Assembly: GCF_002198715.1 (NCBI RefSeq)
Contig: NZ_MWLK01000001.1
Span: 62,001-126,000, forward strand
Length of the DNA: 64,000 nt
From: Rhodomicrobium sp. R_RK_3
Lineage (GTDB): Bacteria; Pseudomonadota; Alphaproteobacteria; Rhizobiales; Rhodomicrobiaceae
Direction: 5' to 3'
A program made the position numbers and the translations under genes. Each line of letters begins with the position of its first letter. Position 1 is the stretch's first letter. Of the stretch, positions 29,144 to 35,810 are shown in pieces. The notes under the pieces were generated by a model. The model was not told the origin of the DNA and did not search any database. It was given only the letters and a program-made list of their open reading frames with translations.

Positions 29144-30442
29144 ATGCTCGTCCGCCTGAATTCGCTTTGGGAACAGGTGCGTACCGGTCTCTGGTTCCTT
29201 CCCCTGCTGATGACCCTCGCCGCGGTGGCGCTCGCCTGGCTGACGCTGGGGACCCGGCTCAATCTGGGGCAGTCCACGGTGTGGTGGCTGCATAGCGGCA
29301 GCGCCTCCGACGCCGCCTCGCTGCTGTCGAGCCTGCTCGCCTCGATGATCACCATGGCGACGCTCGCCATCTCCATCACCATGGTGGTGCTGACGCTGGC
29401 CGCGAACCAGCTCGGCCCGCGCCTGATCCGCATCTTCATGGCCGACCGGCGCACGCAGACCATGCTGGGCTTCTTTCTCGCCACCATCGTCTACGTCGTG
29501 CTCGTGCTGCGCAGCATCAACAGTGAACTCAGCGCCGGCAAGGTGCCCAACCTGGCCGTGTCGGTCGGCACGGCGATGGTGCTGGCCTGCGTCTTCCTGC
29601 TGTTGTTTTTCATCAACCACCTCGCCCGCTCGATCGTCGCCGACACCATCATCAACCGCATCGGCACCGACCTCGACGCCGCCGCGGCGGAGATGCTGCC
29701 GGACGCCGGAGCGGCACCGGCGGCGGGCGAGCGGCCCGCCCTCGGCGACGGCGGCGCCATCCTGCGATTCAAGCGCGGCGGCTATATCGAGGGCATCGAC
29801 CACGGCGCCCTGGTCGAATGCGCCAGGGAGGCCGGGGCGGTGATCGACCTCGACCTGCGGCCGGGGCAGCACATCCTGCCGCACGGGGCGCATGGGCGAA
29901 TCCATCCCGCCGCCGCGCTGACCGACACGCTGCTGCGCGCCGTCTCGAACCATGTGGTGCTGGCTGGCGAGCGCACCGGCAACGGCGATCTGGAATTTCT
30001 GATCCGCCAGTTGGTGGAGATCGCGCTGCGGGCGCTGTCGCCGGGCGTCAACGACCCGTTCACCGCCATCGCCGTCATCGACCGGCTCGGCGTTTCGGTC
30101 GCCTCGATCATGCGGCGCGACATGGAAACCGGGGTCTGGCGCGACGAGGAGGGCCGACCCCGGCTGCTGACTGAGACGACGACCTTTCGCGGCCTGGCGG
30201 ACGTCGCCTTCAACCAGATCCGTCAGGCCGGCGAAGGGGAGCCGGCGATCCTGATCCGGCTGGTGAGCACGCTGACGCCGCTGCTGGAGCAGGCACGGGA
30301 CGAGGAGCAGCGGCGGGTGCTGCGGGAGCATATTGAGCTGGTGACGGGCGCGGGGGAGCGGTCGGTGAGGGATGGGTATGATTTGGCGGCGCTAAGGGCG
30401 GTGGGGCCGGGCAAGTTTGAAGCCGGCCGCCGGAGCGAATGA
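29144..30442 (+). CDS. DUF2254 family membrane protein
   Basis: This 432-residue predicted inner-membrane protein fits the DUF2254 family. Four membrane segments are clear at about 17-37, 60-85, 105-123 and 138-160. A soluble C-terminal region follows with GGYIEGIDHGAL, DLRPGQHILPHG and the conserved LSPGVNDPFTAIAVIDRL. The family function is not established. The ATG at 29144 is chosen because GGGAGG precedes it by five bases. The same frame is open far upstream, but that part is antisense to rpsB and tsf and not real. The stop codon lies inside R4 copy B. Confidence 0.85.
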   Translation: MLVRLNSLWEQVRTGLWFLPLLMTLAAVALAWLTLGTRLNLGQSTVWWLHSGSASDAASLLSSLLASMITMATLAISITMVVLTLAANQLGPRLIRIFMADRRTQTMLGFFLATIVYVVLVLRSINSELSAGKVPNLAVSVGTAMVLACVFLLLFFINHLARSIVADTIINRIGTDLDAAAAEMLPDAGAAPAAGERPALGDGGAILRFKRGGYIEGIDHGALVECAREAGAVIDLDLRPGQHILPHGAHGRIHPAAALTDTLLRAVSNHVVLAGERTGNGDLEFLIRQLVEIALRALSPGVNDPFTAIAVIDRLGVSVASIMRRDMETGVWRDEEGRPRLLTETTTFRGLADVAFNQIRQAGEGEPAILIRLVSTLTPLLEQARDEEQRRVLREHIELVTGAGERSVRDGYDLAALRAVGPGKFEAGRRSE

Positions 30443-30487: not shown

Positions 30488-30544
30488 CGTTGCGGGGCGT
30501 GCAACCGATTCAGGGGCAACACGTGGCAGCGGAAATCCGGACGA

Positions 30545-30587
30545 TACATATTACAATGTACGTAAGTGTTGCATATGGGGCACATAT
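30545..30587. promoter_or_regulatory. Two short inverted repeats upstream of the HTH cassette
   Basis: TACAT-ATTACA-ATGTA (30545-30560) and ATATG-GGGCA-CATAT (30573-30587) lie 60-105 bases before the first gene of a cassette in which every product has a helix-turn-helix. They are candidate operators. Chance occurrence in AT-rich sequence is possible. Confidence 0.4.
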
Positions 30588-30648
30588 TGGGCGTCGAATC
30601 AGTTTATGATTAAATATGTCTTATTTTTAACGGCCACAAGCGATCGCC

Positions 30649-30966
30649 ATGAGTTCTGAAACATATCTGCGCGCCATATTGAGTATGGTCGCCCGTCAGG
30701 CACTTCCACCCGACCAACTCGCGAAAATAGTCGCTCCCAGCACCAGTCAACATGCGCAACTGCTAGCGTACAACATGTGTGATGGTACTCGGAGTCAAGG
30801 TGACATAGCAAAAGCCAGTAATATTGATCCAGGAAACTTCAGCCGCACAGTTGCACGATGGATCGATGCGGGCGCGTTGTTCCGAATTGGCGATGCACGT
30901 GACGCTAAATTGCTGCACCTCTATCCATTGCCACCTGATGTCATGCCGAAAGAGCGTTCGAAATGA
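30649..30966 (+). CDS. Small winged-helix (MarR-like) protein, cassette gene 1
   Basis: This 105-residue protein has a winged-helix pattern at about residues 35-95. A helix LLAYNMCDGTRSQGDIAKAS and the recognition-type helix NFSRTVARWIDAGALF are followed by a short wing with LLHLYPLPP. It resembles MarR-like small DNA-binding proteins, but no exact family is recognised. The ribosome site is weak. Codon use and base composition differ sharply from the flanking genes. The stop overlaps the start of the next gene (ATGA), which begins a four-gene run. Confidence 0.65.
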   Translation: MSSETYLRAILSMVARQALPPDQLAKIVAPSTSQHAQLLAYNMCDGTRSQGDIAKASNIDPGNFSRTVARWIDAGALFRIGDARDAKLLHLYPLPPDVMPKERSK

Positions 30967-31217
30967 AGCTAGACAATGAGGATTCCAGTCGCCTCGAAGG
31001 CAAGCTAGATACCTTGATCCGGTTGATTGCGCTAAACATTACTTTAGATATTAGCTCGATCAAGGATAAAGCAATCTTACTCAGCAAGGCGGGTCTGCAG
31101 ATTAAAGAGATCGCAATGTTGTGCGATTCTACTCCGAACGCAGTAAGCGTGGCACTATACAAGGCTAAGAAAAATACCGGTAGGGTTAAGGCCTTGGACA
31201 TTGAGGACGCAGCCTAA
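30963..31217 (+). CDS. Small HTH protein (sigma region 4-like), cassette gene 2
   Basis: This 84-residue protein has an N-terminal amphipathic segment (LEGKLDTLIRLIAL) and a C-terminal helix-turn-helix KAGLQIKEIAMLCDSTPNAV. The second half of that motif continues SVALYKAKK, as in sigma-70 region 4 or the small HTH proteins annotated sigma-like. It has no polymerase core-binding region, so it is not a full sigma factor. It overlaps cassette gene 1 by 4 bp and gene 3 by 1 base (TAATG). The function is unknown and DNA binding is inferred. Confidence 0.6.
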   Translation: MKLDNEDSSRLEGKLDTLIRLIALNITLDISSIKDKAILLSKAGLQIKEIAMLCDSTPNAVSVALYKAKKNTGRVKALDIEDAA

Positions 31218-31402
31218 TGGGCACGAAAATCGAAGAAGCTTTACTTGAAGAGTTGACCAACATTAGGCGCCTTCTCATTTTTTCGCTGTTGCGATCCGGC
31301 GCGACCCAATCACAGGTTGCTGGTGCCCTCGGCACTTCTCAAAGCCAGATTAGTAAAATGTTTCCAAAAACATCGAAGGGAACAGTGGAGCCCAGGCAGT
31401 AG
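31217..31402 (+). CDS. 61-residue HTH protein, cassette gene 3
   Basis: This very short protein has the same layout as cassette gene 2. An N-terminal helix LLEELTNIRRLLIFSLL is followed by the helix-turn-helix RSGATQSQVAGALGTSQSQI, which resembles XRE-type or sigma-like HTH units, then a basic tail. Genes 2 and 3 may be distant relatives, since both pair an N-terminal amphipathic helix with an HTH. The start shares its A with the stop of gene 2. Gene 4 begins two bases after its stop. Confidence 0.55.
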   Translation: MGTKIEEALLEELTNIRRLLIFSLLRSGATQSQVAGALGTSQSQISKMFPKTSKGTVEPRQ

Positions 31403-31404
31403 TC

Positions 31405-32295
31405 ATGGCAATTGCGGTTCGCGATCACCTTTCAAATACGCCGGAACACATTGAGGAAGCTGCAAAGGCGATCGGTAAAGGCCATCGGCAAGCCGTGTTC
31501 AGAGCAATTTACCATCACAAAAGTCCAATCAAGACTGTCTCGGACATTGTTGCCGTCACCGGCTTGCCTAGGACGCGGGTCCTGCAATGCGGAAGTGATC
31601 TTGCCAAGCGGACTATCGTGACTCAGACAAAAAAGGGAGGCGAGACCGCTTATGAAATGATCACCTTCTTCCAAGTGAATAAGGCAAAAATCTTAAGGCT
31701 AGCCCGGGACCCCAAAGCTCTTAACGCTTGGCCGACCAAACGGAAGAATTTGATCGCAGCACCCCTTCCTCTAACGGTGCGGTTACCGACACTAGGTGCA
31801 GATGTTAGGAATTTAACGATTGACGAAATCCCCAATTTTGATCGGATTAAGTCTATTCCGGTCGGAGATTCTTTGTCAAAAGAGATCAGCGAAGAACATT
31901 TCAAGCGCGGAATTCAAAATATATTAGGTGACGCCGGGCAATTTAAAGATTGGGGTGGAGAGAATTGCGATTTGTTTTCATCTCGCCTTAGGGTGGATGG
32001 CCAAAGGCGGAACGCAGCCTTTGCCTTCAAGGGGCCTGGGCAAAGTGGGCGCTTAGTCCCGGGCCGGATGGGAAAGAACGGCGATCAGGCACAACGCCTC
32101 TTTACTCTTCCTGCGGAGGTATTTGTAGCTCAACATTGGCGGGAGATCGATCCGAGCGTTATTGAGTTAATGCGTGTGCTCGCTGTCGCGAAGTCGTTAA
32201 GTACGGGCAAACCCGTCTGGATATGCATCATAGACGGGCAAGACTCCGAACGGCTACGTAAGGGCTATCCGAGGGAATTCAGCGCTCAGATCTGA
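31405..32295 (+). CDS. Winged-helix protein with nuclease-like C-terminal domain, cassette gene 4
   Basis: This 296-residue protein has two parts. Residues 25-95 form a winged helix (RAIYHHKSPIKTVSDIVAVT then GLPRTRVLQCGSDLAKR). Residues 165-290 form a compact alpha/beta domain with DWGGENCDLFSSRL (E186, D189), AAFAFKGPG (K209), GKNGDQAQRLF and VWICIIDGQD. The acidic pair followed by a hydrophobic strand ending in lysine recalls PD-(D/E)XK endonucleases, although the usual E-x-K is F-x-F-K here. I recognise no named family. It is the last gene of the cassette and is convergent with dnaE. Confidence 0.65.
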   Translation: MAIAVRDHLSNTPEHIEEAAKAIGKGHRQAVFRAIYHHKSPIKTVSDIVAVTGLPRTRVLQCGSDLAKRTIVTQTKKGGETAYEMITFFQVNKAKILRLARDPKALNAWPTKRKNLIAAPLPLTVRLPTLGADVRNLTIDEIPNFDRIKSIPVGDSLSKEISEEHFKRGIQNILGDAGQFKDWGGENCDLFSSRLRVDGQRRNAAFAFKGPGQSGRLVPGRMGKNGDQAQRLFTLPAEVFVAQHWREIDPSVIELMRVLAVAKSLSTGKPVWICIIDGQDSERLRKGYPREFSAQI

Positions 32296-32330
32296 CGCTC
32301 CCCGGAAGTGGATGCCTTAGGAAATTCCTC

Positions 32331-35300
32331 TCAAAAAGCCACCACCTCAATCACCCCCGGCAGCGCCTTCAGCGCACCGGCCTGCCGGGGCGTCACGTCA
32401 AAATTCCCGCCCAGGTTCAGCTCCACCTCGCGCGCCGGATCGCCCAGCCGCAGGCGCAGCTTCAGCACCGTCGCGCCGCCGTCGCCGACCGTCTTCACCA
32501 TCTGCTCGACCGACAGCCGCCCATCCGCGACGATGCACAGCCCCGACCGCGACCGTCCCAGCGCCGCGTCCAGATCCTGCACGGTCTTCACGCGCGTCTT
32601 GACGTTCTCGCCGTCGAGCTCTGCCTCGACGGTGAGCAGCACGGCCTTGCCGGGCTCCAGCGCCTCGCCGGCGAGCGCCAGCGTGTCGGAGAAGATGACG
32701 GCCTCGAACTGGCCGGTCGGGTCGGAGAAGCCGCCGAAGGCAAAGCGGTTGCCGGATTTGGAGCGGCGCTCCTGCTTATAGGTGACGGTCGCGGCGATGC
32801 GGGCCTCGGCGCGGGGCTGCCCTTGCAATTTCGCCTCCAGCTCGGACCAGCGCATGATGTTGAGGCGGGTCAGCGCGTCGGAATAGTCGTCGAGCGGGTG
32901 GCCGGACAGGTAAAAGCCGATGGCGTCCAGCTCGTGGCTGAGCGTTTCCATCAGGTCCCAGCGCGGCACCTCGCGCAGTTGCAGGCTGGACGCCGTCGCC
33001 AGCTCCAGGCCGCCGCCGCCGAACAGGCTGGACTGGCCCGAGGCGCGATCGGTGGCCAGGCGGCCGGAGAAGGAGAGGATCTGCTCGATATTGGCGTAGA
33101 CGCGGGCGCGGTTGGGCTCCAGCGCGTCGAAGACGCCGGCCGCCGCCAGCGTTTCCAGCGCGCGCTTGTTCAGCACTTTCGGGTTCAGCCGCTCGGCGAA
33201 GTCGGCGAGCGTCCGGTAGCCGCCCTGCCCTGCCCGCTCGGCGGCGATCTGCTCGACCGCGCCGCGCCCGATATTCTTCAAGGCCGCCAGCGAATAGCGG
33301 ATGGCGCCGTCCTCGGGCAGGAATTCGCCGCCGGATGAATTCACCGAAGGCGGCAGCACCTTGATCTTGTTGCGCCGCGCCTCCTGGGCGAACAAATACA
33401 GCTTGTCGGTATTGCCCATGTCGTAGGTCATGGTGGCGGCCAGGAACTCGACGGGGTAATTGGCCTTCAGGAAGGCGGTGTGATAGGCGAGCAGCGCATA
33501 GGCGGCGGCGTGGGACTTGTTGAAGCCGTAGCCGGCGAATTTGGCCACCATTTCGAAGATGTAGTCGGCGCGGCCCTTGTCGACGCCGTTCTTGATGGCG
33601 CCCTCCATGAAGCGCGCCTTCTGCTTGTCCATCTCCGCCTTGATCTTCTTGCCCATGGCGCGGCGCAGCAGGTCGGCTTCGCCGAGCGAGTAGCTCGACA
33701 GCCGCTGCGCGATCTGCATCACCTGCTCCTGGTAGATGATGACGCCGTAGGTCTCCTCCAGCACCGGCTGGATCAGCGGGTGCATGTAATCGACCTTTTC
33801 GAGCCCGTATTTGCGGTTGATATAGGTCGGGATGTTGTCCATTGGGCCGGGGCGGTAGAGCGAGACCATGGCGATGATGTCGCCGAAACGGTCGGGCTTT
33901 AGCTTGCGCAGGCTTTCGCGCATGCCCGTCGATTCCAGCTGGAACACGCCGACCGTGTCGCCCTTGGCCAGAAGTTCGTAGGTTTTGGTATCGTCGAGGC
34001 CGAGCGTCGCCAGATCCAGCTCGATGCCGCGCTGTTTGATCAGCGCCAGCGCCTTCTGGATGACGGTCAGCGTCTTGAGGCCCAGGAAGTCGAATTTGAC
34101 GAGGCCGGCCGGCTCCACCCATTTCATGTTGAACTGGGTGACGGGGAGCGTCGAGCGCGGGTCGCGGTAGAGCGGGACGAGTTCGATCAGCGGCCGGTCG
34201 CCGATGACGACGCCCGCCGCGTGGGTCGAGGCGTGCCGGTAGAGGCCTTCCAGCTTCTGCGCGATCTCCAAGAGGCGCTTGACCACCGGATCGCTGTCGC
34301 GCTGGTCCTGGAGCTGCGGCTCGCCCTCGATGGCCTCGGCGAGCGTCACCGGATTGGCGGGATTGTTCGGCACCAGCTTGCAGAGCCGGTCGACCTGGCC
34401 GTAGGGCATTTGCAGCACGCGGCCGACGTCGCGCAGCACGGCGCGGGCCTGCAGCTTGCCGAAGGTGATGATCTGGGCGACGCGGCGCTGGCCGTATTTC
34501 TCCTGCACATAGCGGATGACTTCGTCGCGCCGGTCCTGGCAGAAGTCGATGTCGAAATCCGGCATCGAGACGCGCTCGGGATTGAGGAAGCGCTCGAACA
34601 GCAGGCCGAAGCGCAAGGGGTCGAGATCGGTGATCGAGAGCGACCATGCCGCGACGGAACCCGCGCCCGAGCCGCGCCCCGGCCCGACCGGAATGCCGTG
34701 CGCCTTGGCCCATTTGATGAAGTCCGAGACGATGAGGAAGTAGCCGGAGAATTTCATCGTGGCGATGACGTTCAGCTCGAATTCGAGCCGGGTCCGGTAG
34801 TCCTCCTCGCTCGCGCCCTCGGCGAGGCCCACGACGCGCAGCCGCTCGGCGAGGCCCTCGCGCGCCTGCCGGCACAGCTCGGCGGTCTCGGCGGCGTTGG
34901 CGTCATCCTTGTCGCCGTCGGTCGCGGTGAATTGCGGCAGGATCGGGCTGCGCATTTTTGGCCGGAAGGCGCAGCGGCGGGCGATCTCGATGGTGTTGTC
35001 CAGCGCCTCCGGCAGGTCGGCGAACAGCGCCATCATTTCCGCGCGCGACTTGAAATAATGCTCCGGCGTCAGCTTGCGCCGCTCGTCCTCGGAGATGTAG
35101 CGGCCCTCCGCGATGCAGATCAGGGCCTCGTGCGCCTCAAAATCCTCGCGGGCGGGGAAGTAGCACTGATTGGTTGCCGCGAGCGGGATGTTGAGGGCGT
35201 AGGCGAGCTTCAGCAGCTCGGCCTCGACGCGCTTTTCCTCGGCCGTGCCGTGGCGCTGGATCTCGATGTAGAGGCGGTTGCCGAAGAGCGCGTGCATCGC

Positions 35301-35810
35301 CTCGAGCTGGGTGCGGGCGGCGGCGTGGTTGTCCTCGCGCAGGAGGCTGTCGATGGGGCCGTCCGGGCCGCCGGTCAGGGCGATCAGGCCCTGGTTATGG
35401 CGGGCGATCTCGTCCCAGGTGACGTGGATCTGGGTGTCGTCCGGATGGTCGATGAAGGCGGCGCTGGTGAGGCTGAGCAGGTTTTTGTAGCCCTCCTGGT
35501 CCTTGACCAGCAGGGCGATGGAGCCGGCGAGCTGGATGCCGGGGGCCTGCCCGTTCTTGCGCGCGGCGTCGGGCTCGGGATCGGCGGCGGCGATCGAGAG
35601 GGTGCAGCCGGTGATCGGCTGGATGCCCGCGCCGACGAGGGTTTCGGCGATCTCGAGCGCGCCGAACAAATTGTTGCGGTCGGTGACGGCGAGCGCGGGC
35701 TGGGCGTCCTTGGCGGCGAGCTTGGCCAGCGCCTTGACGGGCAGCGCCCCCTCCAGCAGCGAATAGGCCGAGTGGAGGCGCAAATGTATGAAGCCGGGTG
35801 TTGCCGCCAT
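32331..35810 (-). CDS. dnaE: DNA polymerase III subunit alpha
   Basis: This 1159-residue replicative polymerase has an N-terminal PHP domain (FIHLRLHSAYSLLEGAL). The C-family catalytic core has GPGRGSGAGSVAAWSL and MPDFDIDFCQDRRDEV with the catalytic aspartates. It is followed by VDYMHPLIQPVLEETYG, a helix-hairpin-helix region and a C-terminal OB-fold with VTYKQERRSKSG. The length is that of DnaE1. It begins near the R1-filled gap at 35811. Its stop lies 35 bases from the low-GC cassette, whose insertion did not disrupt it. Confidence 0.97.
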   Translation of the reverse strand: MAATPGFIHLRLHSAYSLLEGALPVKALAKLAAKDAQPALAVTDRNNLFGALEIAETLVGAGIQPITGCTLSIAAADPEPDAARKNGQAPGIQLAGSIALLVKDQEGYKNLLSLTSAAFIDHPDDTQIHVTWDEIARHNQGLIALTGGPDGPIDSLLREDNHAAARTQLEAMHALFGNRLYIEIQRHGTAEEKRVEAELLKLAYALNIPLAATNQCYFPAREDFEAHEALICIAEGRYISEDERRKLTPEHYFKSRAEMMALFADLPEALDNTIEIARRCAFRPKMRSPILPQFTATDGDKDDANAAETAELCRQAREGLAERLRVVGLAEGASEEDYRTRLEFELNVIATMKFSGYFLIVSDFIKWAKAHGIPVGPGRGSGAGSVAAWSLSITDLDPLRFGLLFERFLNPERVSMPDFDIDFCQDRRDEVIRYVQEKYGQRRVAQIITFGKLQARAVLRDVGRVLQMPYGQVDRLCKLVPNNPANPVTLAEAIEGEPQLQDQRDSDPVVKRLLEIAQKLEGLYRHASTHAAGVVIGDRPLIELVPLYRDPRSTLPVTQFNMKWVEPAGLVKFDFLGLKTLTVIQKALALIKQRGIELDLATLGLDDTKTYELLAKGDTVGVFQLESTGMRESLRKLKPDRFGDIIAMVSLYRPGPMDNIPTYINRKYGLEKVDYMHPLIQPVLEETYGVIIYQEQVMQIAQRLSSYSLGEADLLRRAMGKKIKAEMDKQKARFMEGAIKNGVDKGRADYIFEMVAKFAGYGFNKSHAAAYALLAYHTAFLKANYPVEFLAATMTYDMGNTDKLYLFAQEARRNKIKVLPPSVNSSGGEFLPEDGAIRYSLAALKNIGRGAVEQIAAERAGQGGYRTLADFAERLNPKVLNKRALETLAAAGVFDALEPNRARVYANIEQILSFSGRLATDRASGQSSLFGGGGLELATASSLQLREVPRWDLMETLSHELDAIGFYLSGHPLDDYSDALTRLNIMRWSELEAKLQGQPRAEARIAATVTYKQERRSKSGNRFAFGGFSDPTGQFEAVIFSDTLALAGEALEPGKAVLLTVEAELDGENVKTRVKTVQDLDAALGRSRSGLCIVADGRLSVEQMVKTVGDGGATVLKLRLRLGDPAREVELNLGGNFDVTPRQAGALKALPGVIEVVAF

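Follow-up and report, generated by a model that had tools for sequence, protein, structure and literature searches.

Arrays of small helix-turn-helix genes with exchangeable effectors in bacteria and archaea: an apparently new architecture with a putative immune function

What is the role of a row of very small helix-turn-helix (HTH) genes that runs directly into the gene for a nuclease-like protein? The question is raised by a four-gene cassette of Rhodomicrobium sp. R_RK_3, found in a stretch of 64,000 nucleotides (contig NZ_MWLK01000001.1, positions 62,001 to 126,000), which is referred to here as the window. A previous reading, made from the sequence only, had picked out the cassette and likened it to a defence or toxin-type island. 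We find that genes related to the small HTH genes of the window form arrays at many other loci, and that these arrays occur with more than one kind of effector. The family of HTH-array cassettes, present in bacteria and archaea, is apparently a new and undescribed architecture, and its putative function in immunity is likely. Our preferred reading, to which we would give a probability of roughly 0.55, is that the cassette serves innate immunity, as a module made up of an HTH sensing layer, a winged-helix adaptor and an exchangeable effector.

Arrays of small HTH genes and their effectors

The genes of the cassette, and the two parts of its last product, are as follows.

30649..30966, plus strand: gene 1, MarR-like winged-helix protein of 105 residues, array class c (Pfam MarR_2)
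30963..31217, plus strand: gene 2, sigma-70-region-4-like HTH protein of 84 residues with a leucine-rich N-terminus, class b (34-member alignment)
31217..31402, plus strand: gene 3, HTH_23-like HTH protein of 61 residues with a leucine-rich N-terminus, class a (22-member alignment)
31405..32295, plus strand: gene 4, the effector, winged-helix adaptor and predicted PD-(D/E)XK-like nuclease domain, 296 residues (AlphaFold2, 34-member alignment)
31432..31743, plus strand: gene 4, winged-helix adaptor at residues 10-113, common to the CHAT protein of locus L121 (profile; ArsR/MarR-like fold)
31861..32268, plus strand: gene 4 residues 153-288, predicted PD-(D/E)XK-like domain with candidate active-site residues E163, E186, D189 and K209

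Successive genes are joined by a 4-base overlap, a 1-base overlap and a 2-base gap, and the open reading frame (ORF) calls reproduce the layout and product sizes given by the sequence-only reading. The calls follow a longest-ORF rule with frames read from the first start codon, and the overlap lengths are therefore upper limits. All four products had been said to carry an HTH or winged helix, which is borne out at different levels: gene 1 passes the Pfam threshold for MarR_2 (2.5e-6, 28 bits against a cut-off of 27), gene 2 (sigma70_r4, 0.0048) and gene 3 (HTH_23, 1.9e-4) both fall below the Pfam cut-offs, and gene 4 has its winged helix in the AlphaFold2 model. The two-part layout noted for genes 2 and 3, a leucine-rich N-terminal stretch and then the HTH, can be read by eye from the alignments of class b and class a members. 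Both genes have many relatives in similar positions at other loci.

The first route to relatives of gene 4 was through plasmid and phage matches to its C-terminal domain only. Among 84,980 species genomes 94 relatives were detected, and the top-scoring 80 were retained; with plasmid and phage records, a viral contig and the window, this makes 86 sources of the nuclease domain (L001 is the window again). They fall into two forms, with 37 loci encoding the form of gene 4 itself (about 295 residues, the gene-4-type loci) and 48 encoding another N-terminus (about 350 residues, the other form), these 48 being 47 different loci since L005 and L056 encode an identical protein. The forms were sorted first by length, L008 and L042 being moved by their N-terminus, in the latter case after its array was seen. 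A profile of residues 10-113, which includes L008 and L042 among its own members, matches 34 of the 36 gene-4-type loci fetched, the exceptions being L006 and L013, and none of the other form.

Array genes were sought with iterated profiles of genes 1-3 on 2268 small ORFs lying up to 4.5 kb upstream of the nuclease on both strands. There are 116 of them in 33 of the 37 gene-4-type loci, against none in the 48 loci of the other form (Fisher 1.6e-19; p = 1.2e-18 when L035, L048 and L058, other-form loci with under 1 kb of upstream DNA, are left out). HTH genes of this kind accompany the nuclease elsewhere too; whether the genes stay together was a check proposed by the sequence-only reading. Upstream DNA is also under 1 kb in L006 and L016 among the gene-4-type loci; those that have no array are L006, L013 and L031, where the nuclease ORF is short (134-205 residues), and L008. 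The profiles were run for six iterations at E 1e-3, reached no fixed set and overlap, so that the borders between array classes are soft. Judged by sequence similarity, the array proteins are one broad family of small HTH proteins whose number varies between loci.

The commonest size is three genes (10 loci), followed by five (6 loci) and four (5 loci), with arrays of six, two and one in 4 loci each. Neighbours on the same strand are generally almost continuous, 72 of 81 being no more than 20 bases apart. Seven more members directly follow the nuclease gene at L014, L029, L030, L033 and L046, all gene-4-type, and array genes on the opposite strand make up all of L012, four of five in L025 and one of six in L018. 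The order seen in the window (MarR-like, sigma4-like, HTH_23-like, nuclease) recurs in the alphaproteobacterial loci L010, L011 and L027, whose first array genes are 44-49% identical to gene 1; L010 and L011 add two extra HTH_23-like copies. For 33 of the 36 gene-4-type loci fetched, the source genomes were searched with the gene 2 profile, and 24 of these have matches below 1e-6. Within the source genome the other matches to the gene 1 and gene 2 families are weak (best E 0.07 and 0.014), and gene 1 has no match on plasmids and none confirmed in viral contigs.

Searching genomes with the gene 2 profile identified arrays independently of the nuclease. In 385 genomes of the class it matches 21 at 1e-4 and four below 1e-10, these four being the window and three loci, L121, L122 and L123, in whose stretches the nuclease profile has no match. 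In L121, five array genes are followed by a protein of 346 residues that consists of the gene 4 adaptor (1.5e-20) and a CHAT domain (PF12770, 7e-14). L123 has a pair of array genes, of which one matches weakly, and then a CAP12-type TIR protein (PF10137, 9.2e-23). In L122 five array genes, with a further one on the opposite strand, lead to a 255-residue protein that matches NucS_C weakly (0.0047), and AbiEi and AbiEii come next. Among 388 genomes of the phylum, the profile found the window, the genome of L010 (G611, therefore not new) and one transposase only, the G719 match, recognised as such by eye and rejected as an array.

In the phylum of L038, the same profile gave one new array among 179 genomes (L161, where the nuclease occurs again, with three small genes), and it matched 11 of 120 genomes of the archaeal phylum of L009, three of them new and strong. 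In L202 a 262-residue protein that resembles the HEPN protein of L042 (2.7e-21) is flanked by seven small HTH genes, two preceding it and five following, with an HNH-like gene (by eye) next. L203 has four small genes and a fifth that is winged-helix-like by eye, then a 262-residue protein with a D...QxK pattern, nuclease-like by eye only and with no PDB match. In L204 the nuclease is again of the gene 4 kind, and its array is double, three genes lying upstream and five running divergently. Near it, at L204:9299-10441, is a gene that by eye resembles a tyrosine recombinase and may serve mobility. The seven arrays found by HTH profile therefore carry the same nuclease twice, CHAT once, TIR once, Swt1-like HEPN once and weakly nuclease-like proteins twice. 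A further 24 genomes with weak matches (17 of the class and 7 of the archaeal phylum) stand outside these counts.

Some of the nuclease loci have a second effector. Swt1-like HEPN proteins are present in L042 (3.5e-7) and, with scores under the Pfam cut-off, in L034 (9.9e-6) and L041 (1e-4); the R-x4-H motif is kept in all four Swt1-like HEPN proteins (L042, L034, L041 and L202). A Ymh HEPN (2.2e-10) adjoins an opposite-strand HTH gene in L030, and a NucS-like nuclease (4.8e-9) comes after the downstream HTH gene of L029. A second N-terminal adaptor is common to the L123 TIR and L042 HEPN proteins (7e-8). One conserved module is thus found with several unrelated effectors, as in prokaryotic immune systems with exchangeable effectors. 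Plasmid searches with CHAT, TIR and HEPN queries gave relatives of the effector domains, and six CHAT plasmid regions (of 62 records) contained no ORF matching the array profiles.

We also observed a 313-residue ORF upstream of the array of L015 (L015:5833-6774), whose inner part starts like the L123 TIR and L042 HEPN proteins by eye, with no significant pairwise match and no family match in its C-terminal part; it is possibly a further effector.

Toxin-antitoxin modules likewise have small HTH genes 5' of a toxic enzyme, a tight operon, exchangeable toxins and a patchy spread. The HTH proteins could then be autorepressing antitoxins that hold the effector, the cassette persisting by addiction with phage protection as a side effect, and the AbiEi and AbiEii genes after L122 are consistent with this. 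We consider it an unlikely explanation, because a single locus can have up to eight small HTH genes (L204; seven in L202), because array genes may run against the effector gene (all in L012, most in L025, some in L204), and because the effectors bear adaptor domains of their own. CHAT and TIR effectors are, moreover, more typical of sensor-effector immunity than of antitoxin pairs.

The effector of the window

Gene 4 has no family match in Pfam or NCBIfam, and its best matches in other collections are weak (PADLOC Csa3, 0.0056 over the N-terminus; best PHROG, 0.013). The AlphaFold2 model, built with 34 relatives, has a mean predicted local distance difference test (pLDDT) score of 89.3 and a predicted template modelling (pTM) score of 0.57, and consists of a winged helix, which in a fold search resembles ArsR/MarR-like folds, and a separate C-terminal domain. 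The winged helix filled the fold search of the whole protein, and the C-terminal domain was therefore predicted alone, from 71 sequences (pLDDT 89.7, pTM 0.85).

For this domain (residues 153-288) the best structural match by VIA-align is to residues 2-171 of an Avs4 chain (Z 8.3, root mean square deviation 3.8, 127 residues aligned), followed by FokI (Z 8.2 with 124 aligned, and 8.0), MspJI (7.4 and 7.0), AspBHI (7.3) and a Pyrococcus repair endonuclease (6.5), which complete the seven best rows. We take the Avs4 residues to be the nuclease domain of that protein and the parts of FokI, MspJI and AspBHI to be their cleavage domains. A Z near 8 is modest by the program's own note, and besides EcoT38I, SgrAI, BamHI and EcoO109I the later rows include chains of RNA polymerase subunit E, the highest at Z 6.5, and CD38 (5.3). 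Foldseek gave no match below E 1e-3 for either the whole of gene 4 or its C-terminal domain, and sequence searches of the PDB gave matches at chance level only. In the model the domain has the alpha-beta-beta-beta-alpha-beta core of the PD-(D/E)XK superfamily, with D189 before the second strand (190-197) and K209 at the end of the third (200-209). The resemblance to this superfamily suggested by the sequence-only reading is thus seen in the predicted structure.

The residues named in that reading, E186, D189 and K209, are invariant in all 83 aligned relatives, as are the rest of the stretch D182-E186 and G210, G223, D227, Q228 and R231; E163 is nearly so. It should be noted that the DWGGE stretch and G-x-NGDQ-x2-R served as search motifs for relatives, so that the conservation is free of bias only for D189, K209 and G210, E186 being inside a search motif. 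No acid occupies the canonical position two residues ahead of the lysine (A207, with A-F-K as the consensus of the 34-member alignment), and for this reason we call the domain PD-(D/E)XK-like. The acid of the D/E-x-K motif is replaced in some members of the superfamily, and here E186 or E163 may replace it. From the model, gene 4 is a winged helix joined to a predicted PD-(D/E)XK-like nuclease domain, which is probably active.

In comparison with Avs4, FokI, MspJI and AspBHI, the predicted domain has a similar fold, with an acid before the second strand and a lysine ending the third, but is only about 9-10% identical to them and lacks the acid two residues before the lysine. The motifs DWGGE-x2-D and GKNGDQ-x2-R are peculiar to the domain, and unlike these proteins gene 4 has neither an NTPase nor a fused base reader.

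The missing acid, and the regulator-like appearance of the small proteins, would be expected if the cassette were a transcription-regulation or phage-derived regulator cluster in which the nuclease fold has been domesticated and is inactive. This seems to us very improbable, given that D189, K209 and G210, which lie outside the search motifs, are kept in all 83 relatives, that gene 4 matches PHROGs so weakly (0.013 at best), and that the effectors are exchanged.

A putative immune function

In the immune systems known to us, sensing falls to a single large protein, to a guide RNA, to a cyclase or to a reader of modifications. The exchange of nuclease, CHAT, TIR and HEPN domains behind one module is typical of Avs, CBASS, Pycsar and ABC-3C immunity. 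With prokaryotic conflict systems that have exchangeable effectors (PMC8195603) the cassettes share the same kinds of effector domain beside a conserved module, and adaptors common to different effectors; they differ in that what is conserved is a set of small HTH proteins, encoded separately and varying in number. HEPN domains in this context are treated in PMC3710099. In contrast to CBASS, Pycsar and Avs, no nucleotide cyclase or STAND NTPase family is found in the four cassette proteins.

The PADLOC models PDC-M34B and PDC-S35 are matched by effectors and not by the array, the former by the HEPN proteins of L034 (2.2e-31) and L041 (1.1e-24) and the latter by the L123 TIR (4.6e-18). When 75 array proteins were compared with PADLOC, 14 models were matched by at most five members each, these being mainly HTH-bearing (Csa3, CasR, CARF, PDC-M05A). 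A stretch of 35 residues of gene 1 resembles one stretch of PDC-M05A (3e-4). In PMC12988326, PDC-M05 is a nucleotidyltransferase with a HEPN protein, PDC-M05A being the nucleotidyltransferase; gene 1 differs in being a 105-residue winged helix in which Pfam finds no nucleotidyltransferase domain. None of the PADLOC system models fits the array, and no description of such HTH arrays was found in the open-access PubMed Central literature or in the family models searched, which agrees with the sequence-only reading, whose author knew of no system of this composition; none of the outcomes that this reading had named as refuting it was seen.

In the mechanism that we propose, the tiny HTH proteins (in the window MarR-like, sigma4-like and HTH_23-like) would act as the sensing layer, joining through their leucine-rich N-termini and binding nucleic acid together as a complex, probably in response to phage or plasmids. 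The winged-helix adaptor of gene 4 would couple the effector to them, and contact with foreign or damaged DNA would lead the array to release or place it. The effector of the window would be a FokI/Avs4-like nuclease that cuts DNA, and in the sister cassettes a related sensing layer would drive CHAT, TIR, HEPN or another nuclease-like protein. Since several of the effectors need no DNA site, the array is more likely to be a sensor or trigger than a site-specificity subunit. The exchange of effectors also supports a defence-type reading indirectly, and to that extent the earlier comparison with a defence or toxin-type island stands; the arrays of the gene-4-type loci, the second adaptor, the nuclease fold with its invariant D189 and K209, the patchy spread (phylum labels and rarity in the class), the foreign G+C content and the neighbours of the other nuclease form were also counted in favour of immunity.

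Several observations weigh against this proposal. Each of the other effectors is known from few arrays (CHAT one, TIR one, Swt1-like HEPN four), and two of the seven independent arrays have a nuclease label that is weak (L122) or by eye (L203). The canonical acid of gene 4 is missing, as described above. In class b, the alignment columns assigned by eye to the recognition helix vary no more than the others, and there is thus no sign of a fast-changing DNA specificity there. No methyltransferase match was found among the four cassette proteins, which bears on how host DNA would be spared.

The last such point is the setting, since the frequent defence neighbours expected by the sequence-only reading did not appear. 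The gene-4-type cassettes lie mostly among ordinary genes, with few defence matches in a scan of 133 of the 173 listed nearby proteins, so that the usual defence-island argument fails for them and defence islands do not seem to be their usual setting. Over the 133 proteins there are 51 PADLOC families, with at most 3 members in those listed, and the methyltransferase-type matches are single IIG and MTase_I members (25 families listed); near the other form there are 392 families over 119 proteins, the comparison being one without a matched control set. The scans covered neighbours of up to 800 residues for the gene-4 type and up to 700 for the other form, apart from those of the window and of L037, L038, L041, L042, L045, L046 and L051. 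In L007, a 984-residue protein upstream of the array, outside the scan by its size, is restriction-modification-like by eye.

Two of these points bear also on a different explanation, that the cassette is a modular restriction enzyme whose array proteins are DNA-specificity subunits, with a FokI-like nuclease cutting a composite site and variable arrays giving variable specificity. FokI joins HTH-bearing recognition subdomains to a nuclease, its nuclease fold matches the domain of gene 4, and both the number and the class of modules differ between loci. We nevertheless find this improbable: related arrays go with CHAT, TIR and HEPN effectors, which need no DNA site, the recognition helix of class b is not hypervariable, and unlike type II/IIS restriction-modification systems the cassette operon has no partner methyltransferase.

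Returning to an immune module, the cassettes may represent a new immune class of bacteria and archaea, with a combinable sensor row of one to eight HTH proteins from separate genes that assembles on nucleic acid, and with common adaptors that release a nuclease, a CHAT protease, a TIR protein or a HEPN RNase; we see even odds for this wider claim. If it is true, sensing split over a variable set of HTH proteins (mostly 55-150 residues) would be a different way of building recognition, and short 'HTH domain' genes, which are readily classed as regulators, would gain a role. Defence-island searches would tend to miss the family, because of the ordinary surroundings of the gene-4-type cassettes. 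All the parts of the cassette are small, which makes the idea open to direct test.

Spread, the other form and base composition

Gene 4 is rare in its class. A search with the single protein found no relative in 60 related genomes, in 384 other genomes of the class or in viral contigs, which corresponds to 1 of 385 genomes (the window's own); a sensitive profile matched 2 of 385, the second match being weak and helicase-like, and matched the source genome once. That second match, at L124:6610-8565, is a 651-residue protein that is superfamily 2 (SF2)-helicase-like by eye (nuclease profile 1.2e-5), perhaps a nuclease-helicase fusion. In a tree of 34 gene-4-type proteins, 29 rows bear 14 phylum labels, from bacteria and archaea, and these are interleaved, with 17 label changes against a minimum of 13. 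The labels are nevertheless more clustered than by chance, since only 1 in 200 shuffles gave a count as low, and a surplus of changes does not by itself establish transfer. At L013:405-1473 the nuclease gene is apparently interrupted, a transposase-like ORF (by eye) lying between a linker-like piece and the nuclease domain.

The other form of the nuclease adjoins LmuA/LmuB, SIR2, OLD-like and kinase genes, and is also found on plasmids, which fits a defence domain used in two settings. In L004:2196-6403, from a contig filed as phage, an array-less nuclease stands directly before SIR2-like and HerA-like ATPase genes (by eye), with SIR2_2 among the family matches, and the locus looks defence-related. 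In L065, L072 and L079 (Saccharothrix, Streptomyces) it comes after genes of 456-460 and 985-1049 residues; the LmuA and LmuB matches among the neighbours of this form are not tied to these individual proteins. The identical array-less nuclease is encoded at L005:7410-8480, on the viral contig IMGVR_UViG_2932987669, and at L056:7410-8480 in Sulfidibacter corallicola, and a serine-recombinase-like gene (by eye) is near it on the viral contig.

The cassette lies in a segment of distinct composition, the two remaining features of the window being the following.

30520..32345, no strand: low-G+C segment of about 1.8 kb containing the cassette (50-base G+C profile)
30563..30586, no strand: weak imperfect palindrome 5' of gene 1, a possible operator without comparative support

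The foreign base composition noted from the sequence is clear, both 60-base counts being exact (21 of 60 G+C at 31021-31080, and 43 of 60 at 32401-32460 in dnaE). Positions 30649-32295 have 49.9% G+C against a mean of 64.8% (standard deviation 2.6; z = -5.7), below all of 592 overlapping windows of cassette length, the lowest value elsewhere in the 64 kb being 57.1%. No tRNA was found in the window, and no exact repeat longer than 8 bases is common to both edges of the segment. The inverted repeats reported upstream of gene 1 are present but weak (the 15-nucleotide imperfect palindrome listed above, 73%, and another 15-nucleotide pair, 80%), and were given no weight. The segment is bordered on one side by dnaE (minus strand, 32331-35810) and on the other by a gene with its frame end at 30442, which we take to be DUF2254-like and whose relatives are 26-34% identical among the matches listed.

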